Origin: an uncultured Prevotellaceae bacterium
GTDB lineage: Bacteria; Bacteroidota; Bacteroidia; Bacteroidales; Muribaculaceae
Direction of reading: 5' to 3'
Length of the DNA stretch: 64,000 bases
NCBI GenBank assembly: GCA_900318535.1
Contig: ONKU01000017.1
Span: 1 to 64,000, forward strand
Under the pieces are notes generated by a model. The model ran no database searches and was not told the DNA's origin. It saw nothing but the letters and a program-made list of their open reading frames with translations. The number at the start of each line of letters is the position of its first letter. The first letter of the stretch is position 1. The position numbers and the translations under genes were made by a program. Positions 38,271-55,874 of the stretch are shown one piece after another.

Positions 38271-41200
38271 ATGATAAATATGGAAAAAGAATCATTACTC
38301 TTTAGGATGCTTGTCCTGGTGACGGCCGTGATGTGCGCCCTTGGCGTCAGTGCCCAAGAGGCCTATGCCGTGTACACGTCTGAGAACACGACACTGTCGT
38401 TCTACTACGACAATGATCGCAGTAGCCGCACCGGCACGACCTACGACTTGAACGAGGGCGCCACCGATACCGGTTGGGACACCGACGGCACCGATGTCAA
38501 TGTGACCAAAGTTGTCTTTGACCCCTCGTTTGCTGATGCCCGCCCGACGACCACCTACGGCTGGTTTTATGAAATGAAGAGCCTTCAATCCATCACGGGC
38601 ATGGAGTACCTGAACACCAGCGAAGTGACCAATATGGCTTATATGTTTAGTGACTGTGGAAATTTGACGAGCCTTGACTTGAGCCACTTTAACACGTCCC
38701 AGGTGACCATTATGCATGACATGTTCGAATTCAGCAGTGGACTGACGAGTCTTGACTTGAGCCGTTTCAACACGTCCAAGGTGACTGATATGGAAAACAT
38801 GTTCTCAGAATGTACCAGTCTGCAGACCATCTATGTGGGCAGTGGCTGGAACACTACTGCCGTGGAATTATCTAGATGGATGTTCCTAGACTGTAACAGC
38901 TTGGTGGGCGGCCAGGGCACGACCTGGGACATGTCCAACCCGATGGACAAGACCTATGCCCACATCGATGGTGGCCCCAGCAACCCTGGCTACTTCACCG
39001 AGAAGGTTCCCGAGGCCTATGCTGTGTACACATCTGACAACACGACGCTGAAGTTCTACTACGACAACGATCGCAGTAGCCGCACAGGCACGACCTACGA
39101 CTTGAACGTTGGCCCCTCCGATCCCGGTTGGGTTGCCGATTTCACCAATCTCAATGTGAAGCAGGTGGTCTTTGACCCCTCGTTTGAGGCTGCCCGCCCG
39201 ACGAGTACCTTCTACTGGTTCTCCGGAATGAGGAACCTTGAAGCCTTCACTGGTCTGGAGCACCTGAACACCAGCGAGGTGATACGCATGGATAACATGT
39301 TCAACCGCTGCTATAAGTTGACGAGCCTGAACCTGGAAAAATTCAACATGTCCAAGGTGACTGACTTGAGTGAAATGTTCAGGAACTGCAGTGCGCTGCG
39401 GACCATCTACGTGAGCGATGGCTGGAAAATGAGTGAGATGGCTCTCACTGGCTCTCATAATGTGTTCAAGGACTGCACCAGTCTCGTGGGAGGCAAGGGC
39501 ACGGCCTATGATGCAGCCCATGTGGATGCCGACTATGCCCACATCGACGGCGGAACCGACAACCCGGGCTACCTCAGTGCAAGAACCATGCCCTATGCCT
39601 GCTACACGCCAACCGACTTTACGCTGACGTTCTACTGCGATGACCTGCGCTATAGCCGCGAGGGCACAACCTATGACCTGAACACGGGTGATGGCACTCC
39701 CGCTTGGTCGGATTCAAATGACCCAATCGTCGAACAAGTGACTAACGTGGTCTTTGACCCCTCGTTCGCCGATGCCCGCCCGACGAGTACATCTGCATGG
39801 TTTCGTGATATGGAAAATCTCAGGTCCATTACGGGACTCAGTTACCTGAACACCAGCGAGGTGACCAATATGGGTGAAATGTTCTATGGCTGTATAACAT
39901 TGGCGAGCATTGATATGAGCCATTTCAACACGTCCAAGGTGACCAATATGCAAAATATGTTCACTGCCTGCTATGGGCTGACGAGCCTTGACTTGCGCAG
40001 TTTCGACACGCGCAATGTGACCGACATGAGCGAGATGTTCTACTTCTGCACCAACTTGCTGAGCACTAACCTGAGCAGTTTCAATACGTCCAATGTGACC
40101 GATATGCACTGGATGTTCTTTAACTGCTACGGTCTGCGCACCATCTATGCGGGCAATGATTGGAACACAGCGGCTGTAGCAAACGCCATGTTAATGTTCT
40201 ATAACTGTACCAGTCTGGTGGGCGGTCAGGGCACGACCTATAATGAATCCAACCCGAGGGACGATACCTATGCCCACATCGACGGCGGCCCGAGCAACCC
40301 GGGTTACTTCACTGAATGGAAAGAGGCCTATGTTGTGTACACCGAGGAGAACACGACGCTGACGTTCTACTGCGACGACCAGCGTGATTCCCGCTCAGGC
40401 AGGATATACGACTTGAACGAGGGTATTATCCCTCCCGGTTGGGTAAATGATAACACTAATCAGCAGGTGACGCAGGCCGTCTTTGACCCCTCGTTCGCCG
40501 ATGCCCGTCCGACGACCACCTGCGGATGGTTTGATGGCATGAATAGCCTGCAGTCCATCTCGGGCATGAATTATCTGAACACCAGCGAGGTGACCACGAT
40601 GATTCGTATGTTTGCTAACTGCAGCCAATTGACGAGCCTTGACGTGAGCAACTTCAACACCGATAAGGTGGCCTATATGGCAGGAATGTTCAATTCCTGT
40701 ACAAAAATAACGAGCCTGGACCTGTACAGTTTCAACACCTCCAATGTGACCAACATGCTCGAGATGTTCAATGGATGTTCCAGTCTGCAAACCATCAATG
40801 TGAGTGATGGTTGGAGCACCGCTGCCTTGAGCGAAGACTATCTGATGTTCATGGACTGCAGCAGCCTCGTTGGCGGTGAGGGCACGGCCTACGATGCCAA
40901 CCACGTGACTGCCTCCTATGCCCACATCGACGGCGGTGCCGACAACCCCGGCTACTTGACCGATCCCTATGCACGTAAGGCTTATGTAGTGTTCACGGCT
41001 GAGGACGAGACGCTGACGTTCTACTACGACCACCTGCGCGGCACCCGCTCGGGCACGATCTACAACCTGAACACGGGAAGAAACAACCCCGATTGGTATG
41101 ATGATCAAACCTGTATGCAAGTGAAGTATGCGGTCATTGACCCCTCGTTTGCCGATGCCCGCCCGACGACCACCTACAGCTGGTTTCTCGATATGGAGTT

Positions 41201-42449
41201 ACTTGAGTCTATCACAGGCTTGGAGTACCTGAACACCAGTGAGGTGACCAATATGGAATATATGTTCTCTGCTTGCAACGAATTGACAAGCCTCGACTTG
41301 AGTCACTTTAACACCGAAGAGGTGACCTTTATGGGAGGTATGTTCATTCACTGCAATAAAATTAAGAGTCTTGACTTGAGGAGTTTCAACACTGCCAAGG
41401 TGAGAGGCATGAGAAATCTTTTCGCTCTATGTCACGCACTGCAAACCATCTATGTCGGCGATGGTTGGAGCACCGCGTCGGTGAGTGACGACTTTCAGAT
41501 GTTCATGGAATGCAACAGCCTCGTTGGCGGTATGGGTACGACCTTCGATCCCGCCCACATCAGGTCGGAGTATGCCCACATCGACGGCGGTCCCGACAAT
41601 CCCGGCTACTTCACGGGAAATGAGGCCTATGCTGTGTACACGGCCGAGAACACGACGCTGACGTTCTACTACGACATCGATCGCAGCAGTCGCGCTGGCA
41701 CGACCTACGACTTGAACACGGGATATAACAGGCCTGGTTGGCAAACTGACGAGACCTATGAGACTGTGACCAAGGTGGTCTTTGACCCGTCGTTCGCCGA
41801 GGCTCGCCCGACGTCCACCAACGGTTGGTTCCATGTTATGAGAGAACTTGAATCCATCACTGGCCTGCGCTACCTGAATACCAGCGAGGTGACCAATATG
41901 GAAGAAATGTTCTGTTACTGTCTTAAATTGACGAGTCTTGACTTGAGCCATTTCAATACAGCCAAGGCGACAAAAATGTACGGCATGTTCGATGGGTGCA
42001 GTGGCCTGACAACTCTTGATTTGAGTGGTTTCAACCCGCCCAGGATGGCCGAGACGTCTAGTATGTTCGCATACTGCACTAATCTGAGGACCATCTACGG
42101 ACGTAATTGGGACACCAGTATCGTGTCGAACTCACAGAATATGTTCTATAGATGCAACAGTCTTGTGGGCGGCCAGGGCACAACCTATGACCCCAACCAC
42201 ATCGACAAGGCCTATGCCCACATCGACGGCGGCCCCGACAACCCTGGCTACTTCACCAAGAAGCCTGACCGGGGCGACGTGAACAGCGACGGCAGTGTTG
42301 ACATCAGCGATGTGACAGCCCTTATCGACCTGCTGCTGGGCGGCGGCACCATCAGCAACCCCGTAGCCGACTGCAACCAGGACAGCAGCGTGAACATCAG
42401 CGACGTCACCGCCCTGATCGACTACCTGTTGTCTGGTACCTGGAATTAA
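38271..42449 (+). CDS. Giant BspA-like (DUF285) surface protein: six ~215-residue modules plus dockerin-like tail
   Basis: A 1392-residue protein with a signal peptide (cleavage near VSAQ, residue 29). Six modules begin near residues 30, 248, 440, 685, 903 and 1118. Each opens with a YAVYT..NTTLTFYYD..R..R.GTTYDLN block, then VVFDPSFADARPTTTYGWF, then DUF285 leucine-rich units (LTSLDLSHFNTSKVTNM..MF..C), and ends with YAHIDGG..NPGYFT. Residues 1334-1391 hold two dockerin-type loops (GDVNSDGSVDISDV and DCNQDSSVNISDV). BspA-like proteins mediate adhesion to host or partner cells. No enzyme domain is seen. A second start (MEKESLLF) is possible at residue 4. Confidence 0.9.
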   Translation: MINMEKESLLFRMLVLVTAVMCALGVSAQEAYAVYTSENTTLSFYYDNDRSSRTGTTYDLNEGATDTGWDTDGTDVNVTKVVFDPSFADARPTTTYGWFYEMKSLQSITGMEYLNTSEVTNMAYMFSDCGNLTSLDLSHFNTSQVTIMHDMFEFSSGLTSLDLSRFNTSKVTDMENMFSECTSLQTIYVGSGWNTTAVELSRWMFLDCNSLVGGQGTTWDMSNPMDKTYAHIDGGPSNPGYFTEKVPEAYAVYTSDNTTLKFYYDNDRSSRTGTTYDLNVGPSDPGWVADFTNLNVKQVVFDPSFEAARPTSTFYWFSGMRNLEAFTGLEHLNTSEVIRMDNMFNRCYKLTSLNLEKFNMSKVTDLSEMFRNCSALRTIYVSDGWKMSEMALTGSHNVFKDCTSLVGGKGTAYDAAHVDADYAHIDGGTDNPGYLSARTMPYACYTPTDFTLTFYCDDLRYSREGTTYDLNTGDGTPAWSDSNDPIVEQVTNVVFDPSFADARPTSTSAWFRDMENLRSITGLSYLNTSEVTNMGEMFYGCITLASIDMSHFNTSKVTNMQNMFTACYGLTSLDLRSFDTRNVTDMSEMFYFCTNLLSTNLSSFNTSNVTDMHWMFFNCYGLRTIYAGNDWNTAAVANAMLMFYNCTSLVGGQGTTYNESNPRDDTYAHIDGGPSNPGYFTEWKEAYVVYTEENTTLTFYCDDQRDSRSGRIYDLNEGIIPPGWVNDNTNQQVTQAVFDPSFADARPTTTCGWFDGMNSLQSISGMNYLNTSEVTTMIRMFANCSQLTSLDVSNFNTDKVAYMAGMFNSCTKITSLDLYSFNTSNVTNMLEMFNGCSSLQTINVSDGWSTAALSEDYLMFMDCSSLVGGEGTAYDANHVTASYAHIDGGADNPGYLTDPYARKAYVVFTAEDETLTFYYDHLRGTRSGTIYNLNTGRNNPDWYDDQTCMQVKYAVIDPSFADARPTTTYSWFLDMELLESITGLEYLNTSEVTNMEYMFSACNELTSLDLSHFNTEEVTFMGGMFIHCNKIKSLDLRSFNTAKVRGMRNLFALCHALQTIYVGDGWSTASVSDDFQMFMECNSLVGGMGTTFDPAHIRSEYAHIDGGPDNPGYFTGNEAYAVYTAENTTLTFYYDIDRSSRAGTTYDLNTGYNRPGWQTDETYETVTKVVFDPSFAEARPTSTNGWFHVMRELESITGLRYLNTSEVTNMEEMFCYCLKLTSLDLSHFNTAKATKMYGMFDGCSGLTTLDLSGFNPPRMAETSSMFAYCTNLRTIYGRNWDTSIVSNSQNMFYRCNSLVGGQGTTYDPNHIDKAYAHIDGGPDNPGYFTKKPDRGDVNSDGSVDISDVTALIDLLLGGGTISNPVADCNQDSSVNISDVTALIDYLLSGTWN
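38358..42262 (+). repeat. Six tandem coding repeats in the large BspA-like gene
   Basis: Repeat units start at about 38358, 39012, 39588, 40323, 40977 and 41622, each ~580-735 bp. They keep strong DNA identity in the opening (GAGGCCTATGCTGTGTACAC) and closing (GCCCACATCGACGGCGG) parts. This favours recombination, copy-number change and assembly errors. Confidence 0.85.
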
Positions 42450-42470
42450 AACTTCAGCAAAACCTAAAGT

Positions 42471-42506
42471 TTTCCCTCATGCTCATCCAGGGCGTGAGGG
42501 AATTTT
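42471..42506 (+). terminator. Terminator of the large BspA-like gene
   Basis: An 11-bp stem with one G-U pair (42472-42482 with 42492-42502, TTCCCTCATGC) is followed by TTTT. An imperfect second inverted repeat (GCCGTC...GACGGC) lies at about 42528-42564. Otherwise the 42450-42750 gap holds only the promoter of the next gene. Confidence 0.6.
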
Positions 42507-42636
42507 CTGTTCATGGAGCGAAAAAAGCCGTCCAGCACCTTCGTTTGTGATGCTGACGGCAGTTGCGGCAATCAGTCGATATCCAGATTGCAGCATAACG
42601 GGGTATCATGGGCGCGAAATTGAACGTGAACAGCAT

Positions 42637-42684
42637 GAAATGGGCAAACAGATGATGAGAATTGGAAATACTTTATTACCTTTG
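42637..42684 (+). promoter_or_regulatory. Promoter and shared upstream box of the second BspA-like gene
   Basis: TACCTTTG (42677-42684) fits the -7 box. GAAATGGGCAAAC at 42637-42649 is identical to 38193-38205 and equally spaced from the -7 box (40 versus 39 bp). Confidence 0.5.
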
Positions 42685-42750
42685 TGGGTCAAACCTCGCA
42701 AGTAATACCAAACAGCAAACAATAATATTAACCAATAAATCCTGATAACT

Positions 42751-44547
42751 ATGAGCAAGAAACAACTCTTTAGACTCTTCGCCCTCGTGGCGGCCATGAT
42801 GTGCGCCCTGGGCATGCAGGCTGCTGTCGAGGCCTATGCCAACTACACGCCGTCGAATACGACGCTGACGTTCTACTACGATAACCAGCGTAGCACCCGC
42901 ACTGGCACGACCTATGACTTGAACACTGGCTACAGCTCCCCTGGGTGGTACTTGGATGGCACCTACACCAGTGTGACCCGAGTGGTCTTTAAATCCCCAT
43001 TCGTCATTGCCACTCCGACGACCACGTACAGCTGGTTTTGTGATATGGAGAATCTTCAATCCATCACCGGAATCGCCTACTTAAACACTAGTGAGGTGAC
43101 CAATATGGGTTGGATGTTCGGTGGTTGTTCTTCTTTGAAGAATCTTGACCTGAGTTTCTTCAACACGGCCAAGGTGACTGATATGCGATGTATGTTCTAT
43201 AATTGTGAATCTTTGATGAGCCTTGACTTGAGCCACTTTAATACGGCTAATGTAACTGATATGTATGGCATGTTCGACCATTGTGAATCTCTAGCAAGTC
43301 TTAATGTGAGCAATTTCAACACCGCTAATGTGACCGATATGAGATACATGTTCCGAAATTGTAAACTTTTGACAAGCCTCAACGTGAGCAACTTCAATAC
43401 GGACAACGTGACCAGCATGGGTGACATGTTCAGTAATTGCTGTGGCTTGACGAGTCTAGACTTAAGAAATTTCAATACGTCCAACGTGACCAACATGGAA
43501 AGCATGTTCTGGGGGTGCAGTGCCTTAACAAATCTTGACGTGAGCAGTTTCAACACCGCTAATGTGACCAATATGGGTATCATGTTTAGTGATTGCAACA
43601 GTTTAACGAGCCTCGACGTAAGCAACTTCAATACGGCCAACGTGACCACAATGAACAGGATGTTCGAAAATTGTTCAGCCTTGACGAGCCTTGACTTGAG
43701 CAGTTTCAAAACTGCCAAGGTGACCAATATGAAATGGATGTTTTTTGATTGCACTAACCTGAATACCATCTATGTGGGCGACGGCTGGAGCACGGCGGCC
43801 GTGACGAGTTCCGATTATATGTTCTATTATTGCACCAAATTGGTGGGCGCCTTGGGCACGGTCTATGATGGCAACCACGTGGACAAGGCCTATGCCCACA
43901 TCGACGGCGGTTCCAGCAATCCGGGCTATTTCACCGCTCCTGACTTGCTTGACGATGCATTGAACGTCGAGGGCAGCAACATCCACTTCGAGTCCACGGG
44001 GGATTATCCCTGGACAGTTATACAGGAGGGTAGCCGCATGTATGCCCAGTCAGGCAACGCGGGCGTGGCAAACAGCTCCTCGGTGATGACGGCGACGGTA
44101 ACCGCTGTCGAGGGCGATATTCTTGAGTTTGACTTCAAGGCCTGGGGCGAAGGCACATCAACGCTGCATGACAGATGCTCTTTCAGCATCAACGGCGTGG
44201 AGCAAATCGCTTACGGCGAGTATCAGAACGCTGGCTGGGAAACCTATTCCGTTTACTTGCCCGCAGGGGAATGCACGCTGGAATGGAGCTACACCAAGGA
44301 CCTCAGCGTCAATAGACCGGGCGACTACTTCGCGGTGGACAATGTGGCTATCATCAGCGCTACGTCGCGTGGTGACGTGAACGGTGACGGCAGTGTGAAC
44401 ATTGCCGACGTGACTGCCCTGATTGACCTGCTGCTGGGCGGCGGTACCATCAGCAACCCCGTAGCCGACTGCAACCAGGACAGCAGCGTCAACATTGCCG
44501 ACGTTACCGCCCTGATCGACTACTTGTTATCTGGCACTTGGAATTAA
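42751..44547 (+). CDS. BspA-like (DUF285) surface protein with beta-sandwich and dockerin-like tail
   Basis: A 598-residue protein with a signal peptide (cleavage near GMQA, residue 24). One opening module (YANYTPSNTTLTFYYDNQRS) is followed by about ten uninterrupted DUF285 units at ~24-residue spacing (LDVSNFNTANVT.M..MF..C) to residue ~375. A separate domain at ~395-535 (SNIHFESTGDYPWTVIQEGS through DYFAVDNVAI) looks like a choice-of-anchor/MAM-type beta-sandwich. Residues 540-598 are the dockerin-like pair. Probably a secreted or surface adhesin. It shares promoter box, tail and 3' flank with the gene at 38271, so the two are likely duplicates. Confidence 0.88.
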   Translation: MSKKQLFRLFALVAAMMCALGMQAAVEAYANYTPSNTTLTFYYDNQRSTRTGTTYDLNTGYSSPGWYLDGTYTSVTRVVFKSPFVIATPTTTYSWFCDMENLQSITGIAYLNTSEVTNMGWMFGGCSSLKNLDLSFFNTAKVTDMRCMFYNCESLMSLDLSHFNTANVTDMYGMFDHCESLASLNVSNFNTANVTDMRYMFRNCKLLTSLNVSNFNTDNVTSMGDMFSNCCGLTSLDLRNFNTSNVTNMESMFWGCSALTNLDVSSFNTANVTNMGIMFSDCNSLTSLDVSNFNTANVTTMNRMFENCSALTSLDLSSFKTAKVTNMKWMFFDCTNLNTIYVGDGWSTAAVTSSDYMFYYCTKLVGALGTVYDGNHVDKAYAHIDGGSSNPGYFTAPDLLDDALNVEGSNIHFESTGDYPWTVIQEGSRMYAQSGNAGVANSSSVMTATVTAVEGDILEFDFKAWGEGTSTLHDRCSFSINGVEQIAYGEYQNAGWETYSVYLPAGECTLEWSYTKDLSVNRPGDYFAVDNVAIISATSRGDVNGDGSVNIADVTALIDLLLGGGTISNPVADCNQDSSVNIADVTALIDYLLSGTWN

Positions 44548-44672: not shown

Positions 44673-45632
44673 TTACAGTTTCACGGCGTTGATGTCTACG
44701 AGGTCGTTGACGATGGCATAGATGGTCAGTCCTGCGGGGCTGTGTATCTGGAGTTTCTGGGCGATGTTGCGGCGGTGGGTGATGACGGTGTTGACCGAGA
44801 TGCCGAGATGGGCCGCGATTTCCTTGTTGGCCATGCCTTGGACAAGGGCAATGATTACTTCCTTCTCGCGGCTTGAAAGTGTTTCCCGCCCTAGCGTGCC
44901 ATCCTTGAAAACCATGTTGGTGATGTTTCGGGTCACGTCGCCGTGCTTGACGAGCCGCTCAAGGCGTCGGATGGCAGGGACAAAGATATGGTCCTCGACC
45001 AATGCGTGCTGGGATAGCCATTCCTCGTTCTCATAGATGTCGTGCAAGGCAGCGGTCAACTGGTTGTTGTGCAGTCCGTCTTGCGGCAGATACTTGATAA
45101 TGAGTATTTTCAACTCTCTCAACTGCTGGTCGGTGGCTCCATGATGCTTGGAGAAGGTCTCCACGTTGTAGTCGCTGGCGGGTAGCCCCTCAAGGAGCTT
45201 TTCGACGTAAGGGAACAGCGTCTTTTGTTCATAGTTCATGTGACGGCGTATCTCATGGGCATAAGCGTCATAGAGTTTCATGATGAGCTGAGCCAAAGAG
45301 TTGTTTTCGTTGAGCGATTCCTCCAGCTCGCGGCGGATGTAGGGCAACTGGAAGTCGATGAAATAGGCATGGCTGGCCTCAAGATAATGCAATAGGGTAG
45401 AGGCTGAAATGCGCTCATCGTCTTCGGCGACCCCAATGCCGTTGATGGTAAAATTAACCACCGTCAGGAACGTGTGGGTATCCACACCATTGCTCTCACA
45501 GGTTTCACGAACAGTCTTGTCGCCAAAACCCAGGCTGATGCCAAAGCTTCCCAGCGCCTGCAACAGGTTATAGTTATCGCCAATGAGCGATATCATCTTG
45601 TCGTCGGCCTCATATATTTTCTGCTCTTTCAT
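44673..45632 (-). CDS. Regulator with ScdA-N-like, hemerythrin-like and LuxR HTH domains
   Basis: A 319-residue cytoplasmic protein. Residues ~14-65 (GDNYNLLQALGSFGISLGFG, then DKTVRETCESNGVDTHTFL) resemble the DUF542/ScdA N-terminal domain of iron-sulfur repair proteins. Residues ~85-235 are hemerythrin-like, with possible metal ligands in HAYFIDFQLPYIRREL, HEIRRHMNYEQKTLFPYVE, SKHHGATDQQL and LVEDHIFVPAIRRLE. Residues ~250-310 are a LuxR/NarL HTH (LSSREKEVIIALVQGMANKE, then IAAHLGISVNTVITHRRNIA). The fusion suggests a DNA-binding sensor of NO, oxygen or iron state. No target genes are proven. It is monocistronic between two hairpins. Confidence 0.85.
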   Translation of the reverse strand: MKEQKIYEADDKMISLIGDNYNLLQALGSFGISLGFGDKTVRETCESNGVDTHTFLTVVNFTINGIGVAEDDERISASTLLHYLEASHAYFIDFQLPYIRRELEESLNENNSLAQLIMKLYDAYAHEIRRHMNYEQKTLFPYVEKLLEGLPASDYNVETFSKHHGATDQQLRELKILIIKYLPQDGLHNNQLTAALHDIYENEEWLSQHALVEDHIFVPAIRRLERLVKHGDVTRNITNMVFKDGTLGRETLSSREKEVIIALVQGMANKEIAAHLGISVNTVITHRRNIAQKLQIHSPAGLTIYAIVNDLVDINAVKL

Positions 45633-45657: not shown

Positions 45658-45665
45658 CAAAATTA
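45658..45665 (-). promoter_or_regulatory. -7 promoter box of the hemerythrin-LuxR regulator
   Basis: TAATTTTG on the minus strand, 25 bp before the ATG at 45632, matches TAnnTTTG. A weak ATTG lies 20 bp further upstream at the -33 position. Confidence 0.6.
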
Positions 45666-45721
45666 GCCTTCACTTCGATGCCTTGCAATCATCATAATTA
45701 GGTATTTATGACAAGAATTGC

Positions 45722-45780: not shown

Positions 45781-48588
45781 TTATTCTGAGAGCATGGTGA
45801 CCTCGATGCAGCGTCCCGCGGCAAGCAGGCGCTGGGCCATGCGTTGCACATTGGCTGCGGTCATGTTTTCTACCATTTTGCAATAGTCACGGTCAAAGTC
45901 CACATCATCGTCCAGTTCATGCCAGATGATGTAACTCCAATAGTCATTAGTGATGGCCATTTGGGCATACTGTTTTGTAAGGTAGAGTTTCACCTTGTCC
46001 AAGCTGGACTCAAGAGGCCCGTTGTCCGCAATGTGCTGCAACTGTTGGTAGATAATCGGGTTGAGTTCCTCGTAGCGGCTGGGATCGGCATTATACGAAA
46101 TCTTGAAGGATGCATTGGGCTGATCATCCTTAGCCAGCTCAAAGTCCACACTCACACCATATGTGCCGCCTTTCTCCTCACGCACCGAGTCGGTATAGGC
46201 GATGGAGAGGCATCGCTTCAGGAAATCCAGTTCTAGGTCGCTCTGTGCGGTAAATGGCACGTCGGCGGTGTAGAAGATGCTCACGTTGGCAAGCGGTGTC
46301 GCCATCTTCTTGGTGAACTTGTGTACTGATTGACCTCCAACAACTTGCGGGATATTGCTGTAATTGGTCTGCTCGTGTTTGCCTGTTGAGGGCAGCGTCG
46401 CCAGATATTGGCAGAGCAATTGGCGCAGTTCCTGCTCGTCATAGTTGCCGATGATGACCGTCTTGAAATTGGATGCGTCGTTAAATCGTTCTTGATAGAT
46501 TTGCATGATGCGGTCATAGTTCACAAGGTCGAGTGTAGATTGCACGACAGGCTCCATACGCGGATGATGACCGTAAAGGATGGCACGGATGGAATCGTTA
46601 TAGTCCACCTTGGGCGAGGCATTCCTATTGGTGAGGAATGAGCGGTTGCGGCTGATGAACTCGTTAAATGCCGTGGTGTCACGTCGTGGTGAGGTGAAGT
46701 ACAGGTGAGCCAGCTCAAACATGGTCTTCATGTCTTTCACCGATGAGGAACCATTGATGCTCTGGCTCTTGGAGCCAATTGACGGGCTGACGCGTACCGA
46801 CTTGCCCATGAGCATCTTGCGCAGCGTGAGGATGTCAAAATCCCCCACACCCGCCTCGTTCACAGCGCTTGAAATGAGGCTGAAGTTGGGGATATCCTCG
46901 TCGCCGTAGAGCGAGGTGCCGCCTTCGCCCTCCATTTCCAGAGAGACGGCATCAGCGTTGAAATCGGTTTTGCGGGTATAGACCTTCATGCCGTTAGACA
47001 GGGTAAACTCGGTAAAACCATGCTTATAGGGCTTCTCGCTGACAATTGTTCCAGGCTGGGGCAGTTGGTCAATCAGCCTGTCGGCCAACTGCTGCTCGGT
47101 GTAAGGTGCATAGTTGAGGCGTTGGGTAGCTAGAATGACCTGCTCAATCTGGGCCTCACTGGGAAGAATCACTTCCTGCTTGTCGGGGGCGTACATGACC
47201 ACGACTTGGTTCTGGTCAGTAATCAGGTCACGTGTTGCTGCATTGACCTCATCAAGGGTAACGTCGCGGTCCAGTTTGCGGGTATTCTCCAATTCGTACT
47301 CAACTGACACCAGCGGCTCTCCCGTCAGGAAATGGCTCACGCAGGCGTTGACATAGTGCGAGTTGCGGTAGTCATCGCGCATGTTATAGCGACGCTCGGC
47401 GGCATTGAGGAAGAGTTTCTTGGCGCGTTCCAACTCGCCCTGGGTAAAGCCATGCTGGCGAGCCTGCTCGGCAATGCCCACAGCGGCGATGATGCCACCT
47501 AGGATGTTGTCCTGCTTGCAACTGATGCTCAAGGCAAAGGCCTCCTTGGTGCGGCTGATGAAGAATGTAGAGGCACGTCCCGTAGCGCTTTGGACGGGAG
47601 AGCCGGGTTGCTGACTCAATTCGGCAAAACGGTCATTGAGCATGGTGCTGATGAGGTCGTCGATGTAGCTGTCGCGCAGGTAGGCCTCGCTGTCTTTCTC
47701 GTTGTCGGGCGTGGCGTCACGTTTTTGGTACAGGTGGCACAGCACGATGGGCTGTTCGGCGTCCTTCTTGATGGCGACAATCATCTTGTCATTATCACCC
47801 ACGGGATAATAGACGCGCTCGGCGGGTTTCTTGGGCATGGGAATGGACGAGAACACTTTCTTGATTTTCTTTTCCATCTTGTCCACATCGATGTCACCCA
47901 CGACTACGATGGCCTGCAGGTCGGGGCGGTACCATTTCTGGTAATAGTCGCGCAAGTCCTGGTAGGGGAAATGGTCAACGATGTCCATCGAGCCGATGGG
48001 CATGCAGTCCTCATATTTTGTCCCTTGATAGATGATGGGCAGGACATCCTCCTGCATGCGTTGCACGGCCATTCCAGTTCGGCGGGTGCGCCATTCCTCG
48101 TGGATAACGCCGCGTTCCTTGTCAATCTCTTCGTCCTCGAGCAGCAGGTAGTGGCTCCAGTCGTGCAGTACCAGCAGGCAAGAGTCAATGATGCCCTCGC
48201 GAGTGAGTGGTGCTGAGCCGATGTGATAGACCGTCTGGTCGATCGAGGTATAGGCATTGAGGTTAGCACCGAATTTCACACCGATGCTCTCGCACCAGGG
48301 TACGATGCCGGGCTTGCCGTTCTTGCCAGGAAAGTTTTTGGTGCCGTTAAAGGCCATGTGCTCCAGGAAATGAGCCAAACCGCGCTGACGGGGCTCCTCA
48401 AGGATGGACCCTACACGTTGCGCGATATAGAAGTCTGCTAGGCCGGCCTCCTTGGCATTGTGGCGGATGTAATAAGTCATCCCGTTCTTGAGCGTGCCCT
48501 TTCTCACATCAGGGTCTTGAGGCAACTGGGCTGCCACCCATGAGGGCAGCAGCACCAGTGCTATAAGAAATAATAAATACTTCTTCAT
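45781..48588 (-). CDS. M16 (pitrilysin/PqqL-like) zinc protease
   Basis: A 935-residue exported protein (signal peptide cleaved near VAAQ, residue 21) with the inverted zinc motif HFLEH (H73, E76, H77) and a downstream acidic block ERGVIHEEWRTRR supplying the third ligand. It has the full two-half M16 length, with a second peptidase-like half from ~510 (FTLSNGMKVYTRKTDFNADA). The family degrades unfolded or small proteins inside a closed chamber. E. coli PqqL and Pectobacterium FusC are periplasmic relatives that cut proteins brought in by a TonB receptor. It is the last gene of the operon led by a TonB receptor, 5 bp after the DUF4876-like gene. Confidence 0.9.
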   Translation of the reverse strand: MKKYLLFLIALVLLPSWVAAQLPQDPDVRKGTLKNGMTYYIRHNAKEAGLADFYIAQRVGSILEEPRQRGLAHFLEHMAFNGTKNFPGKNGKPGIVPWCESIGVKFGANLNAYTSIDQTVYHIGSAPLTREGIIDSCLLVLHDWSHYLLLEDEEIDKERGVIHEEWRTRRTGMAVQRMQEDVLPIIYQGTKYEDCMPIGSMDIVDHFPYQDLRDYYQKWYRPDLQAIVVVGDIDVDKMEKKIKKVFSSIPMPKKPAERVYYPVGDNDKMIVAIKKDAEQPIVLCHLYQKRDATPDNEKDSEAYLRDSYIDDLISTMLNDRFAELSQQPGSPVQSATGRASTFFISRTKEAFALSISCKQDNILGGIIAAVGIAEQARQHGFTQGELERAKKLFLNAAERRYNMRDDYRNSHYVNACVSHFLTGEPLVSVEYELENTRKLDRDVTLDEVNAATRDLITDQNQVVVMYAPDKQEVILPSEAQIEQVILATQRLNYAPYTEQQLADRLIDQLPQPGTIVSEKPYKHGFTEFTLSNGMKVYTRKTDFNADAVSLEMEGEGGTSLYGDEDIPNFSLISSAVNEAGVGDFDILTLRKMLMGKSVRVSPSIGSKSQSINGSSSVKDMKTMFELAHLYFTSPRRDTTAFNEFISRNRSFLTNRNASPKVDYNDSIRAILYGHHPRMEPVVQSTLDLVNYDRIMQIYQERFNDASNFKTVIIGNYDEQELRQLLCQYLATLPSTGKHEQTNYSNIPQVVGGQSVHKFTKKMATPLANVSIFYTADVPFTAQSDLELDFLKRCLSIAYTDSVREEKGGTYGVSVDFELAKDDQPNASFKISYNADPSRYEELNPIIYQQLQHIADNGPLESSLDKVKLYLTKQYAQMAITNDYWSYIIWHELDDDVDFDRDYCKMVENMTAANVQRMAQRLLAAGRCIEVTMLSE

Positions 48589-48593
48589 TGATA

Positions 48594-49832
48594 TTAATTG
48601 TTGAGCAACGAAGCGGGAGCCTCGGGAATGAAGTCGTTGGTCGAGTTGTTGGTGTCAATGTACTTGCCATTGGCGTCCTGCTTGCGGATTACCGACTTGT
48701 TGAAGCGGGTCTCGTCACGATCTACCTTACCACAGTAGGACCAACCGGCATCAATCGAGGCATCGAGCACGTTCCACTCGCGTACCGATTCAACGCTCAG
48801 GTTCACGCCGTCGAGAATCCACTCGTTAGGCACCTTGTAGATACCGCTCTTGGTCATTTCCTTCGAGAAGTCACCGAATACGAACAGATAGGTGGCGTCA
48901 TAGACGTAGTTCTCCAGCCAATCTTCCTTGCTGGTCTTCATCTTAGCGATGGCCATCGAATTGAAACCACGGCTGTGGAACTGGTAAACAGTAGCCGTGT
49001 AGCAATACCATTTGTCCAGGTTGGGGGCCTCACCATCGGGGTCGGTGAAGTTGGGGTTGGATGTCTCGTCATAGAACTCAAAGTCAGCGTTACTCAAGTC
49101 GATGGAGTTGGGCTGCTCGGTGGTGTGGTTGATGGCGTTGACGGCCAGTTTGAGACTCTGACCAGGTTCAACGGGAACGCTCTTGCCGTTGCCGGGAATC
49201 ATGTAGCAGGCCTGTACCGAGAAATGGGTAGACATGATGTCGGGGGTGTAGTCCTCCTTGGTGGTCGTCAGGAAGGCTGACTCAAGCACGGCGATGCTGT
49301 CGGCATACAAAGTGACGTCAGAGTTGTTGGTGATGATGATGTACTGGTCACCGCTGTAGGACCTTCCATCGCTTGTCGATGAACCGGTAAAGAATATCTC
49401 ACTGATGACAAATCCGCCTTGAGCAGTGAATGTGGAGACAACCATTTTCAGGTCATGTGAGGACTCAGAGATCAAGACATTCTCGGAGGTTACCTCAAAG
49501 TCCTTCTGGCCGGCTACGCCGTTGAGGGTGAAGTCAAGATGACCGGTAACAACAACGTTATAGGTGCCTTGCTGCAAGTCATTGCACATGATTTTGTAAC
49601 CATTGTCATCCTTGACAAACTTGGCTCCTTCGATAGTGGTGACTTGATTGGTCTGGACGTTAGTCAGTGTGGCGACCGCATTGCTGAGTACGGCATTCTC
49701 CAGGTTGGCAGGTATCTCCAGGGTTACCATCGAAGTGGGGATGACGGGAATGGGGTCATCACTGCTGCAAGATGTTAAACACATAACTGCCGTGAGCATC
49801 GCGATGATGCCGTTCAAGATAAACTTTTTCAT
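48594..49832 (-). CDS. DUF4876-like lipoprotein
   Basis: A 412-residue lipoprotein with lipobox VMCLTSC (Cys22). Residues ~35-120 form a beta-rich domain (ATLTNVQTNQVTTIEGAKF, LQQGTYNVVVTG) that resembles the small lipoprotein encoded two genes upstream. The main body (FVISEIFFTGSSTSDGRSYS, GDQYIIITNNSDVTLYADSI) matches my memory of DUF4876 proteins, which have a lamin-tail-like fold. The likely place is the outer-membrane surface or inner leaflet, as a partner of the TonB receptor. Function unknown. It is 43 bp from the barrel gene and 5 bp from the M16 gene. Confidence 0.7.
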   Translation of the reverse strand: MKKFILNGIIAMLTAVMCLTSCSSDDPIPVIPTSMVTLEIPANLENAVLSNAVATLTNVQTNQVTTIEGAKFVKDDNGYKIMCNDLQQGTYNVVVTGHLDFTLNGVAGQKDFEVTSENVLISESSHDLKMVVSTFTAQGGFVISEIFFTGSSTSDGRSYSGDQYIIITNNSDVTLYADSIAVLESAFLTTTKEDYTPDIMSTHFSVQACYMIPGNGKSVPVEPGQSLKLAVNAINHTTEQPNSIDLSNADFEFYDETSNPNFTDPDGEAPNLDKWYCYTATVYQFHSRGFNSMAIAKMKTSKEDWLENYVYDATYLFVFGDFSKEMTKSGIYKVPNEWILDGVNLSVESVREWNVLDASIDAGWSYCGKVDRDETRFNKSVIRKQDANGKYIDTNNSTNDFIPEAPASLLNN

Positions 49833-49875
49833 TCTTTTCTTTTGTTTTAATGAGTTGATTGTTAATTATTTGTTA

Positions 49876-51372
49876 TTAAAATGTAATTCCTATTGAACAG
49901 TGCAGTGACGTCTGGTGCTCGCTGGCCGAGCACAGGGTCATGCCGCCCGCTGCCTCGGCAAAGAGGCCATAGCGGGACTGCTTCAGGGCGTAATCGGCAC
50001 GCACCTTGGCACCAAGATCGGTATAATTGGCTGTAGCAAATTTGTGCTTATGCTGAATCAAGCGGGTAAATGCGGCATCCATGTTGGCCAGCGGCATGTT
50101 GAGTTTGTCACTGGCTTTTGCATAGTAGGAGGCATGGACATCCACCGTCAGTAACCATTTGTCTGTCGGACGGATGAAACACTGTCCCTGCAGTTTTCCA
50201 TAAACATGGCTGGCATCCATCTGCCGATGAGGATAGACATATTCTTCACTCACTGCTCGATATCCCGCCGCTATGTTGACGTTCCAGTTGCCTCGGCCAT
50301 AGAGCGCACCAGCATAGGTATCCATTATATGGCTTTTGTACATCGTCAGGCAAGCGATGACAGGGAAGTAGCGGGCGTCGGACGTGCCGCCCACATGCTC
50401 ATTACCCGTGCGCCTAGTATAGTCAGCGTGTCCAAACGCGGCAAGACGGTGATTCTTTTCTTGTTTCCAGCCGATTGTGGCTCCCACGTGCTCGTTATAG
50501 AGGTCGGTGAGCGGCATGGAGTTAAATTCAGCGAGTTTGCGGTGATAACGGTGCTCGTCAAGGGTGACGTCGGCATAGGGGCCGCTCTGGTTGATAGGGG
50601 AAGCATGCAGCATGATGGCCACACCTCCTCCATCATAATAGAGGCTGCGCTTGTCGCCCGAGAAGCGGCTGTATTCTGTGCCTAGACCTGTCATCTGATA
50701 CTCGGGGATGACGCCCTCCTCACGATAGAAGGCGACGCTGTTGGTCTGCTTGTAAATATTGCCCTCAACAGCGGCTCCTAGGCGATAGTGTCCCAAGTCA
50801 TAACCGCCACCCATACGCAAGGTTAAGTCGGTGACGATGCCCCTCATGCGCGGGTCACGGCTGCGGTATTCCTGTTCAGCACGGACGTGCATCTCGGCTC
50901 CCAACTGCCATTTGTTGATGTTGGTAGTATATCCACCCGAGATGCTGTAACGCTCTCGCCGTATGTCTCCGCCCAGGGTGTCAGAGAGAATGTAGGGCTG
51001 CAACAGGTCATAGTCGCTGGTAGAGTTCCACTTGATGTCGTGAACCTTGCCAGTCATGTAGGAGGCCTCGCCCCACACGGTGGAACGCCCGTTTAAGTGA
51101 TGGAAAGTGTTCACTTTGAGGTAGGGCAGGGTATAGCCGCTGCCCTTCTCGGGAACAAATCCTTGGGTCTGGTGCAGAAAGTCGATGCCCAGTGCCAACT
51201 GAGAGTACGGGGTCTGATAAACCATACCATGAAGGGCAGGGTTGCGCATGGCTTCTAGCATGGGCAGCCTAGCTAACGAGGTGTGCTCGACCAGTGCCGA
51301 GTCAGCATTGGAAGCCATTGCTGCCACTTGAATGGCTATGAAGATAAGTATGAGCAAAATTTGGCGTGTCAT
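49876..51372 (-). CDS. Outer-membrane beta-barrel protein (DUF6850-like)
   Basis: A 498-residue exported protein (signal peptide to about residue 20) with many alternating amphipathic strands and a C-terminal aromatic residue (HCSIGITF), as in outer-membrane barrels. Typical strands are RYSISGGYTTNINKWQLGAEMH and YRLGAAVEGNIYK. I associate it with the DUF6850 family seen next to DUF4876 proteins; that name is from memory. It starts 1 bp after the small lipoprotein gene ends, so it is translationally linked to the receptor complex. Function unknown. Confidence 0.7.
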   Translation of the reverse strand: MTRQILLILIFIAIQVAAMASNADSALVEHTSLARLPMLEAMRNPALHGMVYQTPYSQLALGIDFLHQTQGFVPEKGSGYTLPYLKVNTFHHLNGRSTVWGEASYMTGKVHDIKWNSTSDYDLLQPYILSDTLGGDIRRERYSISGGYTTNINKWQLGAEMHVRAEQEYRSRDPRMRGIVTDLTLRMGGGYDLGHYRLGAAVEGNIYKQTNSVAFYREEGVIPEYQMTGLGTEYSRFSGDKRSLYYDGGGVAIMLHASPINQSGPYADVTLDEHRYHRKLAEFNSMPLTDLYNEHVGATIGWKQEKNHRLAAFGHADYTRRTGNEHVGGTSDARYFPVIACLTMYKSHIMDTYAGALYGRGNWNVNIAAGYRAVSEEYVYPHRQMDASHVYGKLQGQCFIRPTDKWLLTVDVHASYYAKASDKLNMPLANMDAAFTRLIQHKHKFATANYTDLGAKVRADYALKQSRYGLFAEAAGGMTLCSASEHQTSLHCSIGITF

Positions 51373-51373
51373 G

Positions 51374-51757
51374 TCAGTCGAGGAAGATGGTTTTTAGTGT
51401 GACCTCATTGATGTCGTGACTGATAAACTCCACATAGTCGCTCTGGCAGCGGAACTGACGCATGCGGGTTGCATTGTCGGGCGACAGGCAAGTGGCAACG
51501 CCTTCAATGTCTATCTGATAAGCGCCACGCAACAGTTCCACCATCGCACTGGTACCGTTAAAGTCGGCAACTGTCGTGACTTGGCGCGTGTTAACATTGG
51601 TCAGTTTCACCTGCGCCTGGACACTGGAGATGGACACGTCGCTCTCAGCTGTGACCGTTATACGAGCGGTGGTGAAGATGTCGTCTTCCACTGGGGCACA
51701 GGCTGTGAGTAGCATGACAAATGTTATAGATAACAGGAAAATAATGTTATGTTTCAT
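51374..51757 (-). CDS. Small lipoprotein of the TonB/M16 operon
   Basis: A 127-residue protein with lipobox VMLLTAC (Cys20). The mature part is one beta-rich domain (ITVTAESDVSISSVQAQVKL, TNVNTRQVTTVADFNG, LLRGAYQIDIEGVA). It parallels residues ~35-105 of the DUF4876-like protein, sharing LTNV.T.QVTT and the L..G.Y...V/I.G block. It therefore looks like the N-terminal domain of that protein made as a separate lipoprotein. Its start overlaps the receptor stop by 4 bp. Function unknown, probably an accessory of the receptor. Confidence 0.65.
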   Translation of the reverse strand: MKHNIIFLLSITFVMLLTACAPVEDDIFTTARITVTAESDVSISSVQAQVKLTNVNTRQVTTVADFNGTSAMVELLRGAYQIDIEGVATCLSPDNATRMRQFRCQSDYVEFISHDINEVTLKTIFLD

Positions 51758-54483
51758 AGCTTGATGTTCATTTCGAGTCCGAAGTAAGGGGTTACATGAC
51801 GGCGAATGGTTGTGCCGCGACTGTCATAGTCGGGGGTGTAGTCCCACAACTTGTTGCAGAACATGGCGACGTGGAGACGGTCGTCAAATAGTTTCTTGGT
51901 GACCTTCATATTGATATTCATAGCGAACGGGACACGATTCTTCTCGAACAGCGAGGGCGTGTAGTCCCTGACAAGCCAGCGCAGGTACATGTCGTCGGCA
52001 TCGCTGTCCTGCCAATCATGAATGCTGCCGTCGGGGGCGATGTACTGGACGGGATAGTTGTTCACCTCCTTGCGCTGTGAGGTGGTGAACCACATGCATT
52101 GGGCTGAGATAGAGAAGCCCAGTTTGAGGCGAGGAACGTCGGTGTCGAGTGTGAAATTGGTGTTGAATGACTCTCTCACCGAACCGTCGTCGTTGGCATA
52201 CAGTCCCACATACTGGATCTGGCGATTGTCAATCACCTGACTCGGGCGGTAGGAATCCACGATGGAATTATTGTAGGTCGTGCGGAAGTAGGCACCATTG
52301 ATGGTCAGGCGTGTCAAGATGACGGGGAATCGCTTGGTCTCGAGGGTGTACTCGATACCCTCCTTCAGTGTCATGCTGCCGTTGGTATAGTTGTCATAGC
52401 CGGCCAACTCGTTGATGAGCGTGAATGGTAGGTCATCGAGATCGGGTTGCCCAGTGAGGCTCGCGGCATCGATGCCACTGGCGTCATATTGCTTGTATTG
52501 AAATGTCCGATAATAGGACTGCATGCGGAATCCCGACGTCATCTTCTCGCGGAACGCCGTAATGGCCAACCTGTTGCCGCCAATGTTGATATCAATTGAC
52601 ACCTCCTTCTTGAGGTTGCGTGCTGGCTCTAGTGCGGTGTTGCGCGGATTGACGATATAGGTCATCAGGTTAATGCGCCTGTAATCGGGATTGTCGTGGT
52701 AGTAGTTCAACTGGATGAAGTCGATATAGAGCAGGTCTGGGAACAACTGTTCCATGGTGGGCATTTTGGTGTGCTGGCCGATGCCCCCAGAAACACGGAT
52801 GAAGGTGGGTTTGCCGAATATTGACAGCCTGGGCAACGTGTAGCCGATATTCACACGCGGGTCCCAATATACTTTGCCGTTCATCCTGTAGTCATTATCC
52901 AGGTTGAGCAGCATTGTGCCTCGGATGCCTGCTGTGGCTTCAAGCGTTCCAATGGGCGTTGGCCACTTGAGGCTCTCCTCGGCATAGGCAGACAGACGAT
53001 GATTGGCGGGAATCTCCTTGAGGGAACGTGCCCGTGACGAGATGCTGGTATATACTGGCGTGTGTGGGTCAAACACCTGTCCGCGCCCTAGATTCTTGTC
53101 CAAGTTCCAGTCGGTACCCAGCAACAATGTGTTGGATAGTTGGTTATTAGGAATCTGCAAGCGGGCATTCAGTTTAATATAGGCATTCACGGGTTTGCCT
53201 TCCACCTCATGATGTCCCATATACTTAAACGGGAGAATGTAGGCATCGTTCTCGCCTTCTTCTTTGGACAGGGGGGCAACGGTCATGCGCGATAGTTGCA
53301 TCAGGCGGGTTCGTTCAATTAGATCGTTCTCGAGTGATGCCGAAACCGTCAACTCTGCCGATTTGAACCATGAATTTTGTTTGCTCTTGTATTGCAATGC
53401 ATTCAACAGGGCATAGCGGTTGTAACTTGACCGATAGGAGTCCTCGGCGCTATAGGTCTGGTCGATGTCTTCCTTGTCGTTGTCGAGCGACCTGGAAAAG
53501 TCAATATTGGATGAGAGGGTGAGACTGTAATCTTTATACTCCCAGCATTTTCTCAATCGGGTAGAGAATGTCACTCGCTTATAGTTCTCCAATCGGTTAC
53601 GAGGGTCTGCTTTAGCATCTAGGTAATCGGCACTCAAGTTAAGGGTCAAGTGGCGCTTTTCCCATTCAAAATCTTTAGCTGCATAAAAGAGTTTGGAGCC
53701 CATGTCGGCCTTCAGACGGAATTTCATGTCATGCCCGCCGCGGCGGCGTTCAATTTTCACCAGACCGCTGGTCAGATCACCATATTCCACTGAGGGGATG
53801 CCGCGCACGATCTCGACGCTTTCGATGTCGTCGGTCGAGATGCCACGCATGTCAACACCCGCATTGGTGTTGTCACGGCTGGTGGCCATATCATCCCAAG
53901 CTCCGGCAAGATACTGCATGTTGGCACCCGTCGAGATGGGGGCTCCGTCAATGATGAAACTGGTACCCAGCGAGGAGGTGGCATAGTTGCTGTTGCCCGA
54001 GGAAATCTCACGGATGTGGATATTGTTGGGCACGCTCAGTGACGGGTCCAAGCTGCGACCTCCGGGTAACAACTCCAGCAAATCAGAGAAACTCGATGGC
54101 TGCAAATGTTCCATCGCGTGTTTCTCAATCTTGGACGATGTGGTCAAACCACGGTTCTCCTGGGCGGTAACTACCACCTCACCTAACTGGCTTACCTCGG
54201 CATGCAGCAGGTAACGTCCGTCGGCGGTGGGTGCAGTCGTTAACGTCTTATAGCCAATAGATGAAATTCTCAGTTGGACCTCATTATTTTTAGGTATGGC
54301 AAAGGTGCCGTCAGCCTGAGTGACAGTAAGAGCCTTGCCCAGTTTCACGTCGGTAATGGTGGCGCCGATGACGGGCTCCATGGTTTCGGCATCCAGCACG
54401 GTACCGCGGATTAAAGCCTGTGCACCAGCTAATTGCGAGACCAATGCCAACAAGGATAGTATGATATATCTAATTAGTTGCAT
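51754..54483 (-). CDS. TonB-dependent outer-membrane receptor
   Basis: The start is set at ATG 54483 (MQLIRYIILSLLALVSQLAG); a longer frame would need a TTG start and has no signal peptide at its end. The ~909-residue protein has a carboxypeptidase-regulatory-like domain (ALIRGTVLDAETMEPVIGAT), a TonB-box-like EVVVTAQE segment, a plug domain with ESVEIVRGIPSVEYGDLTSG, and a beta-barrel ending YFGLEMNIKL. It lacks the SusC signature and has no SusD partner. It heads an operon with two lipoproteins, a barrel and an M16 protease, which points to import of a protein, peptide or metal complex rather than glycan. Confidence 0.88.
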   Translation of the reverse strand: MQLIRYIILSLLALVSQLAGAQALIRGTVLDAETMEPVIGATITDVKLGKALTVTQADGTFAIPKNNEVQLRISSIGYKTLTTAPTADGRYLLHAEVSQLGEVVVTAQENRGLTTSSKIEKHAMEHLQPSSFSDLLELLPGGRSLDPSLSVPNNIHIREISSGNSNYATSSLGTSFIIDGAPISTGANMQYLAGAWDDMATSRDNTNAGVDMRGISTDDIESVEIVRGIPSVEYGDLTSGLVKIERRRGGHDMKFRLKADMGSKLFYAAKDFEWEKRHLTLNLSADYLDAKADPRNRLENYKRVTFSTRLRKCWEYKDYSLTLSSNIDFSRSLDNDKEDIDQTYSAEDSYRSSYNRYALLNALQYKSKQNSWFKSAELTVSASLENDLIERTRLMQLSRMTVAPLSKEEGENDAYILPFKYMGHHEVEGKPVNAYIKLNARLQIPNNQLSNTLLLGTDWNLDKNLGRGQVFDPHTPVYTSISSRARSLKEIPANHRLSAYAEESLKWPTPIGTLEATAGIRGTMLLNLDNDYRMNGKVYWDPRVNIGYTLPRLSIFGKPTFIRVSGGIGQHTKMPTMEQLFPDLLYIDFIQLNYYHDNPDYRRINLMTYIVNPRNTALEPARNLKKEVSIDINIGGNRLAITAFREKMTSGFRMQSYYRTFQYKQYDASGIDAASLTGQPDLDDLPFTLINELAGYDNYTNGSMTLKEGIEYTLETKRFPVILTRLTINGAYFRTTYNNSIVDSYRPSQVIDNRQIQYVGLYANDDGSVRESFNTNFTLDTDVPRLKLGFSISAQCMWFTTSQRKEVNNYPVQYIAPDGSIHDWQDSDADDMYLRWLVRDYTPSLFEKNRVPFAMNINMKVTKKLFDDRLHVAMFCNKLWDYTPDYDSRGTTIRRHVTPYFGLEMNIKL

Positions 54484-54659
54484 TTCAGTGATTTTGGAGT
54501 ATAAAATTACTCCCAATCACCGAGAAGCACAATACCTAAAAATGAGGTAAGACTTAAGACTCCACCGAAATGACTATCAGTCCCCTCCTTTCATTAGGGT
54601 GAGCCGTTTTTCAAGAGGAATTAAAGGCATCAAAACGATAGGTTTTCGGCGTTTTTTTG

Positions 54660-54675: not shown

Positions 54676-55329
54676 ATGGGACATGGTTTTTTGATAGCGG
54701 CGCCTCACAGTGGCTCGGGCAAGACGACGATTGCTCGGGGACTGATGGCGTTGTTTGCCCGCAAGGGGTATAAGGTTCAGCCTTTTAAGTGCGGGCCTGA
54801 CTATATCGACACGAAGTTTCATGCTGCGGTATGTGGACGGCCGAGTATCAATCTGGACACGTTTATGGCAACGCCTGAGCATGTGCGGGAATTGTATAAT
54901 CGCTATGGTAAGGATGCCGATGTGTGCGTTGTCGAGGGCATGATGGGCCTGTTTGACGGATATGACCGCGACAAGGGTTCTTCGGCCGAGATTGCCCGTG
55001 TCTTGGATCTGCCTGTCGTGCTGGTAGTAGATGCGAAGTCGGCGGCTTACTCGATGGCGGCGCTCATTTCGGGTTTCATCAACTTCCGTAAGGATGTGAA
55101 CATCAGCGGCGTGATTTTCAATCGCGTGGGCTCGGCAAGGCATTTTGCCATGCTGAGGCAGGTGTGTGATGACCTGGGCGTTGAATGCTTTGGCTATCTG
55201 CCCAAGAAGGCTGAGCTCGAGCAAGGCTCCCGTTATTTGGGATTGGATTTCAGCGAGAAACCCGAAAGCAGACTCTTGGTTGAATTACTTGAAAAGAATG
55301 TGGAATGGCAGCGGCTCTTAGAACTTTGA
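54676..55329 (+). CDS. cbiA: Cobyrinate a,c-diamide synthase, N-terminal synthetase half (split CbiA)
   Basis: A 217-residue ORF with P-loop APHSGSGKTT (9-18), KCGPDYIDTKFH (38-49), VCVVEGMMGLFDGYD and LDLPVVLVVDAKSAAYSMAA: the ATP-dependent amidotransferase half of CbiA. It ends at TGA 55327 in the linker before the glutaminase half, which continues in the -1 frame (next entry). CbiA is normally one ~430-460-residue chain that amidates the a and c carboxylates of cobyrinate. The break is either a one-base indel in the genome or the assembly, or a genuine two-subunit form. Both halves look otherwise intact. Confidence 0.85.
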   Translation: MGHGFLIAAPHSGSGKTTIARGLMALFARKGYKVQPFKCGPDYIDTKFHAAVCGRPSINLDTFMATPEHVRELYNRYGKDADVCVVEGMMGLFDGYDRDKGSSAEIARVLDLPVVLVVDAKSAAYSMAALISGFINFRKDVNISGVIFNRVGSARHFAMLRQVCDDLGVECFGYLPKKAELEQGSRYLGLDFSEKPESRLLVELLEKNVEWQRLLEL

Positions 55330-55874
55330 TTGCTCGCAACGACGAGTCGTTCTCCTTTATCTATCAGGAGAATATCGACCGGTTGGAGAATGTGTCATTC
55401 TTCGACCCTGAGCGTGATGTGCCATGCCTTGACGATGTGTCGCTGCTTTACTTGCCGGGCGGTTATCCCGAGAAGCATCTCGATGCCTTGGTCGCAGCCG
55501 AGGCGACACGACGTGCCATCAAAGAATATGCCGAGCGTGGCGGACACATCATTGCCGAGTGCGGTGGCATGATGTATCTGTGCGAGAAAATTGTCACCGA
55601 TGAGGGCGAATTTCCCATGTGCGGTGTGTTGCCATACAGCATCACCGCCCGCAAGCAAGACCGCAAACTCTCGCTGGGTTATCGCCGCTTTACGCTCGAT
55701 GACCAGGAATACCGCGGTCATGAGTTCCACTACACACAATTCCTGGGCGAGCCACCGATTTCGGTAACTCAGGTTTATAACGCAAAGGGTGAGCCCGTGC
55801 CGACACCCGTCATCCGCTACAAGAACGTCCTGGCAAGCTACACTCATTTATATGAAATTCCAATTAGTAACTAA
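55305..55874 (+). CDS. cbiA: Cobyrinate a,c-diamide synthase, C-terminal glutamine amidotransferase half (split CbiA)
   Basis: A 189-residue ORF overlapping the previous one by 25 bp in the -1 frame. It opens TLIARNDESFSFIYQENIDR, the segment that follows the linker in intact CbiA, and carries the class I glutaminase motifs: LLYLPGGYPEKHLD, nucleophile C86 in IIAECGGMMYL, and GHEFHYTQF. The ATG at 55305 could start an independent subunit. The frame is open upstream only to 55293, so any frame change must fall within 55293-55329. It is followed 2 bp later by the adenosyltransferase gene. Confidence 0.85.
   Translation: MAAALRTLIARNDESFSFIYQENIDRLENVSFFDPERDVPCLDDVSLLYLPGGYPEKHLDALVAAEATRRAIKEYAERGGHIIAECGGMMYLCEKIVTDEGEFPMCGVLPYSITARKQDRKLSLGYRRFTLDDQEYRGHEFHYTQFLGEPPISVTQVYNAKGEPVPTPVIRYKNVLASYTHLYEIPISN

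Follow-up and report, generated by a model that had tools for sequence, protein, structure and literature searches.

A tightly packed five-gene operon in the 64,000-nucleotide stretch of DNA analysed here (the window) looks like a known import-and-digest machine built largely from different parts. On evidence that is evenly poised, it may be an iron-starvation-induced system that imports and digests an iron-bearing polypeptide or a haem carrier.

All five genes lie on the minus strand. An earlier sequence-only reading had described this run with spacings of -4, 1, 43 and 5 bp, and both coordinates and spacings are exact in the list of open reading frames; the genes are real, closely packed and placed as described. 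The first encodes a TonB-dependent receptor of 909 aa with CarbopepD_reg_2 and Plug domains (51754..54483, minus strand), starting with an ATG at 54483, while the ORF lister also allows an alternative TTG at 54516. Its description as a non-SusC receptor without SusD holds: it scores 57 bits against the SusC model TIGR04056 (cut-off 368), which places it outside that family, and SusD models find no match among the five operon proteins and the adjoining regulator. It is followed by a small lipoprotein of 127 aa, LP (51374..51757, minus strand), which has no match in a Pfam search and resembles the N-terminal part of the DUF4876 protein: residues 11-86 align with the start of the latter (E 7e-6, in a single comparison that includes the signal region). 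The third product (49876..51372, minus strand; 498 aa), previously called an outer-membrane barrel, is indeed one, of the DUF6850 type (Pfam, 322 bits), with 18 long strands counted in the model. The fourth is a DUF4876 lipoprotein of 412 aa (48594..49832, minus strand; PF16215, 197.4 bits, cut-off 27.9), in which acidic residues follow the lipobox cysteine; the DUF4876 model also matches 4q1z/BT_1938. The run ends with an M16 protease gene (45781..48588, minus strand), and no inner-membrane transporter is encoded in the window's operon. Downstream, the neighbouring minus-strand gene (44673..45632) encodes a CdhR-like regulator of 319 aa, a hemerythrin-LuxR (GerE) fusion by Pfam. Next to the regulator gene, the plus strand (38271-44547) carries two genes for large repeat proteins of 1392 and 598 aa, in which 'LNTSEVTNM' units recur and the C-terminal repeats are dockerin-like.

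The protease is full-length, as had been claimed, with 935 aa, an HFLEH motif and Pfam matches to Peptidase_M16 and M16_C; it has a signal-peptide-like N-terminus and lacks a lipobox. Against PDB sequences it scores 717 bits with 9ldy (M16 peptidase), 224 with PqqL, 109 with 6b03 (putative zinc protease), which we take to be FusC, and 37 with Protease III. Judged by these scores the enzyme is PqqL-like, PqqL being the nearest characterised M16, and one feature of the Fus family, a PqqL/FusC-type M16 beside the receptor, is found here. The HxxEH motif is present in all 60 full-length M16 proteins of M16-type loci. At least one M16 match at E <= 1e-60 occurs in 144 of 149 genomes of the window's family, so that M16 as such is near-universal in that family and the cassette copy is usually an extra. 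The window's genome has four long M16 proteins. Besides the operon's own gene, two long M16 genes stand in tandem elsewhere in it (contig C40:468-6281). At another locus (L183:12238-18501) three M16-like genes follow one cassette, two short and one long running to the end of the stretch.

The gene order recurs in relatives. A contig search with the DUF4876 alignment provided titled loci that represent the best 80 of 526 and are biased towards window-like ones; among these best 80, nine loci from metagenome-assembled genomes carry DUF4876 proteins 80-97% identical to that of the window. One (L229) is titled yak rumen and six others bear RUG names, which presumably denote rumen genomes; the window itself probably derives from an uncultured member of the Bacteroidales living in the rumen. 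The order receptor-LP-barrel-DUF4876-M16 is found in eight of the nine, the ORF caller having lost the DUF4876 frame in L227, and the regulator gene follows M16 in eight of nine. Prevotella disiens (L237) and P. ihumii (L256) share this gene order, as do, with frames split in two, another P. disiens locus (L266) and Hoylesella pleuritidis (L234). When window-type loci are defined by the presence of LP, or of DUF4876 after the barrel, 22 of 31 over all loci (window counted) have M16 in the run; the order differs in one of these 22 (L247) and M16 lies upstream in another (L236). The nine without M16 include L239, where the contig ends, and L091 and L241, where none lies beside the cassette. In the same-genus window-type cassette of L091 (6640-8885), a 418-aa gene and an FGE-sulfatase/dockerin gene replace M16, and genes of the same sizes occur in L245 and L251.

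Beyond this type, 67 of the 149 genomes from the window's family have a DUF4876 match (E <= 0.001); for the order the figure is 48 of 295 and for the class 10 of 345. Flanks were compared at 120 places, 74 in the family and 46 in the order and class, with 26 of the 70 listed order rows left out. The core of receptor, DUF4876 protein and barrel is common to most of these loci and recurs across Bacteroidota (the barrel profile matched 112 ORFs over 121 loci, window included). The module behind the core is exchangeable and may be M16, C25-HEAT (sometimes with a papain-HmuY protein), ABC/DUF4857/PepSY or a di-haem peroxidase. At the 74 family places this module is M16 in 26 (25 plus L085, where the ORF caller lost the DUF4876 frame), ABC/DUF4857 in 24 (one divergent) and C25-HEAT in 14; none is recognised in five, four are cut and one has a broken DUF4876 match. 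At the other 46 it is ABC/DUF4857 in 21 (five divergent), C25-HEAT in eight, MauG in three and M16 in three, with none recognised in ten and one cut. The expectation that the five genes stay together across Bacteroidota is borne out in window-type loci and weakened over all relatives, where M16 is one of several modules and is absent next to most cassettes, including the same-genus L091 cassette. The modules are named after Pfam matches of representative proteins, of which C25 (27 bits, cut-off 23) and papain (23 bits, cut-off 20.7) are weak and HmuY in the papain protein is below cut-off (22.5 versus 27). An alignment of 32 C25-HEAT proteins shows no variation at the His-x-His-Gly and Cys-x-Asn-Gly positions, as expected for an active clan CD protease. 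Many cassettes (L070-L088, L144, L151-L154) stand opposite divergent genes for proteins of 580-840 aa (p621/p813/p639div), some of which have T9SS-like C-termini.

A quick receptor tree (111 sequences, some of the module labels being assigned by hand) requires six changes of the M16 label, and well-supported branches force six, so that the combination of receptor and M16 has probably originated or been transferred repeatedly. In the M16 tree, a 23-row clade has a support of 100/100, and the window and L147 proteins fall among non-cassette M16s (97/94). Two origins of cassette M16s are favoured by this tree, but one origin is not rejected by the AU test (p 0.176), and two origins are therefore not claimed. 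Seven rows had been left out of tree and test: two antisense frames, flank matches outside cassettes (L162, L179), a distant own paralogue (L213) and divergent cassette M16s (L174, L183).

In published expression data on oral and gut Bacteroidota, DUF4876 loci belong to those strongly induced by iron depletion. On iron depletion, PG1019-22 is up 20.8-214.5-fold, BT3625-33 38-128-fold and BT1933-39 3.5-7.4-fold (PMC10434189). The one candidate for an M16-type cassette among the loci with such data, P. intermedia PIOMA14_I_1877-79 (TonB receptor, peptidase), is up 9.4-72.4-fold (PMC10434189). In another study, a hemin comparison gives a log2 change of -5.42 for a P. gingivalis DUF4876 gene (PMC10470040). 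A role of the window's operon in iron metabolism is probable, and we hold it with good confidence.

The regulatory DNA is consistent with such a role. In the window, an operator-like dyad, TACCTCATTTTTAGGTA, precedes the receptor gene (54533..54549, minus strand), and a -7-like element, TAATTTTA (54502..54509, minus strand), lies 27 nt after GGTATT; TAnnTTTG is the -7 box consensus of Bacteroidota. In a ten-row alignment of close relatives, the right arm of the dyad is kept in all ten rows, window included, and the left arm TACC in five, and the DNA further upstream is unrelated among the ten rows. The full form, TACYNNN-NN-NNNRGTA, resembles NarL-type 7-2-7 sites. Among 176 receptor upstream regions, RGTATT stands exactly 27 nt before TAnnTTTG in 50, while every other spacing occurs at most twice; the opposite strand gives 11 at this spacing, perhaps from divergent promoters. 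Once similar regions are removed, the element is found at its fixed spacing in 48 of 166, and by module in 26 of 57 M16, 14 of 41 ABC, three of 21 C25 and none of seven MauG regions. The left-arm T, which is outside the search pattern, is present in 47 of 48 element-bearing regions; the bases after it are TACC-like or TCAT-like about equally, so the dyad is often imperfect. A related operator-like and promoter-like site with two mismatches lies before the regulator gene (45658..45704, minus strand), its AAATACC being kept in all nine aligned rows. A perfect dyad, GGAGTA-N6-TACTCC, also overlies the -7 element (54496-54513, minus strand); its core is kept in nine of ten aligned close relatives, and the genome has a single copy of the complete dyad.

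The element appears to mark a wider set of genes. Ten titled genomes hold 48 exact matches to the full pattern and, with up to one mismatch, 100 matches (13 being one repeat in a single genome, G775) versus 11 for the reversed control; for B. fragilis alone the figures are 11 versus 6. In the window's own genome a 2-mismatch pattern is not enriched (five matches, control eight), and one of the five directly precedes the regulator gene. For the exact sites, 45 of 48 were assessed, one being left out and two having no ORF by the rule used. Eighteen precede members of one BLAST group (13 receptors by profile, two more by Pfam and three by link only), seven of which are cassette receptors. The others precede genes of a TetR group (four), leucine-rich/T9SS (four), PALP (three), an unnamed group (five), PFL-like (two), DeoC-like (two), HmuY (one) and others (six, including a transposon gene); one to three members of each group were tested by Pfam. 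The HmuY gene is that of Prevotella koreensis (L328; PF14064, 93 bits), and the element also precedes a TonB siderophore receptor gene (TIGR01783, 292.7 bits, cut-off 223.5). The published iron stimulon also holds HmuY, TetR, TonB-receptor and T9SS genes (PMC10434189).

By linkage and position, the hemerythrin-LuxR protein is a candidate for the regulator which binds the promoter element. A fused regulator of this kind is described in P. intermedia, and split hemerythrin and CdhR genes, up on iron depletion, in P. gingivalis and B. thetaiotaomicron (PMC10434189). Each of the 11 genomes searched contains a homologue of the regulator (E <= 1e-15); as every one of them belongs to the Bacteroidales by title or kinship, this set offers no negative case. 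The workings of CdhR-type regulation of iron genes are described as an open question (PMC10434189), on which the shared promoter element provides a handle.

Whether a protein is imported and digested is about an even proposition. In the proposed mechanism, the two lipoproteins (DUF4876 and LP), which probably sit on the cell surface, would act with the DUF6850 barrel to capture or position the cargo, either a polypeptide that bears iron or a carrier of haem, and the TonB receptor would move this cargo, whole or as a large fragment, into the periplasm. There the PqqL-like M16 would cut it, so that the iron cofactor is freed or the peptide cleared. The adjoining hemerythrin-LuxR regulator probably switches the operon on via the dyad upstream of the promoter. 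The protein nature of the cargo, its periplasmic cleavage and the existence of one outer-membrane complex are what we infer from this set of genes, and plant ferredoxin as the cargo would be a guess.

It is rather unlikely, though worth serious consideration, that the cargo is a small iron chelate (a xenosiderophore or free haem), with M16 confined to clearing peptides or maturing a partner and no protein crossing the membrane. The many cassettes that carry the ABC/DUF4857/PepSY set and no protease would fit such a role, as would the siderophore receptor with the same promoter element; the recurrence of proteases of different families (M16, C25-HEAT, papain-HmuY) at the same position and the several M16 changes needed on the receptor tree argue against it. 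M16 proteases cut peptides. It could thus be imagined that the imported cargo consists of peptides or antimicrobial peptides, taken in for nutrition or to be disposed of, with M16 degrading them and the iron link secondary, and the published link of FusC and HrrP to antimicrobial-peptide resistance points the same way. This is improbable in view of the strong induction of DUF4876 loci by iron depletion (PMC10434189) and of the promoter element shared with HmuY and siderophore-receptor genes. A cobalamin-uptake system is very improbable and unsupported: CbiA, cobalamin adenosyltransferase and CobQ-like genes start divergently at 54676 (plus strand), but the window has no Rfam match at gathering score, close relatives have unrelated DNA on the far side of the promoter element, and of nine such relatives, several with contigs ending near the operon, only L223 has CbiA divergently adjacent, the cobalamin genes of L227 lying on the other side. 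The CbiA-type cobyrinate synthase itself (54676-55874, plus strand) is divided between two ORFs that overlap and are read in different frames, an ATPase part (54676-55329) and an amidotransferase part (55305-55874).

The import-and-digest reading may tentatively be extended, as a possibility less likely than not, to a protein-iron piracy platform of Bacteroidota's own. One core (receptor, DUF4876, DUF6850) would take lineage-specific periplasmic strippers (M16, gingipain-like C25-HEAT, papain-HmuY, di-haem peroxidase, ABC/PepSY), convergent with proteobacterial Fus and switched on by hemerythrin-LuxR (CdhR-like) activators via a NarL-like 7-2-7 operator marking the Bacteroidales iron-starvation regulon. 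The swappable-module pattern suggests a testable function for the DUF4876 family, and that the stripping of iron from proteins brought into the cell has an origin outside the Fus family.

Comparison with known systems supports a likeness of function. The DUF4876 and TonB receptor genes are shared with PG1019-22, BT1933-39 and BT3625-33, the HEAT-repeat protein of BT1933-39 and the DUF4857, ABC and PepSY proteins of BT3625-33 being two of the module types found here; unlike in the window, no M16 is named in these loci, going by the published description (PMC10434189). The promoter element is shared with Hmu haem uptake (HmuY-HmuR), through the P. koreensis HmuY gene, whereas no HmuY or CobN-like gene is found in the operon by Pfam. 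SusC-SusD systems have the same CarbopepD_reg_2 and Plug N-terminal part and surface lipoprotein partners, but differ in the receptor family and in SusD itself. No such system in Bacteroidota was found described in the open-access PMC literature (DUF4876, DUF6850, locus tags, M16, protease-associated import, FusC). Like Fus (FusA/FusC) and YddB-PqqL of Proteobacteria, the operon combines a TonB receptor, an M16 protease and an iron link (PMC6793856). It differs from Fus in its extra lipoproteins, its second barrel, its lack of a FusB- or FusD-like gene, its regulator and its phylum. The proposal of a Bacteroidota counterpart of Fus and PqqL-YddB is partly supported, by the PqqL-like M16, by published iron induction of DUF4876/TonB loci and by the shared promoter element. 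It is qualified by M16 being one of several modules and by the receptors: a profile of 32 gives 12 matches at E <= 0.001 in PDB sequences, none named FusA or YddB, the presence of those two chains in the set being unconfirmed. Fus clusters without FusC carry other proteases or cytochrome c peroxidases (PMC6793856), and the module swap seen here resembles this exchange around a different core. Most likely, the operon works like Fus/PqqL-YddB, the relationship proposed being one of function.
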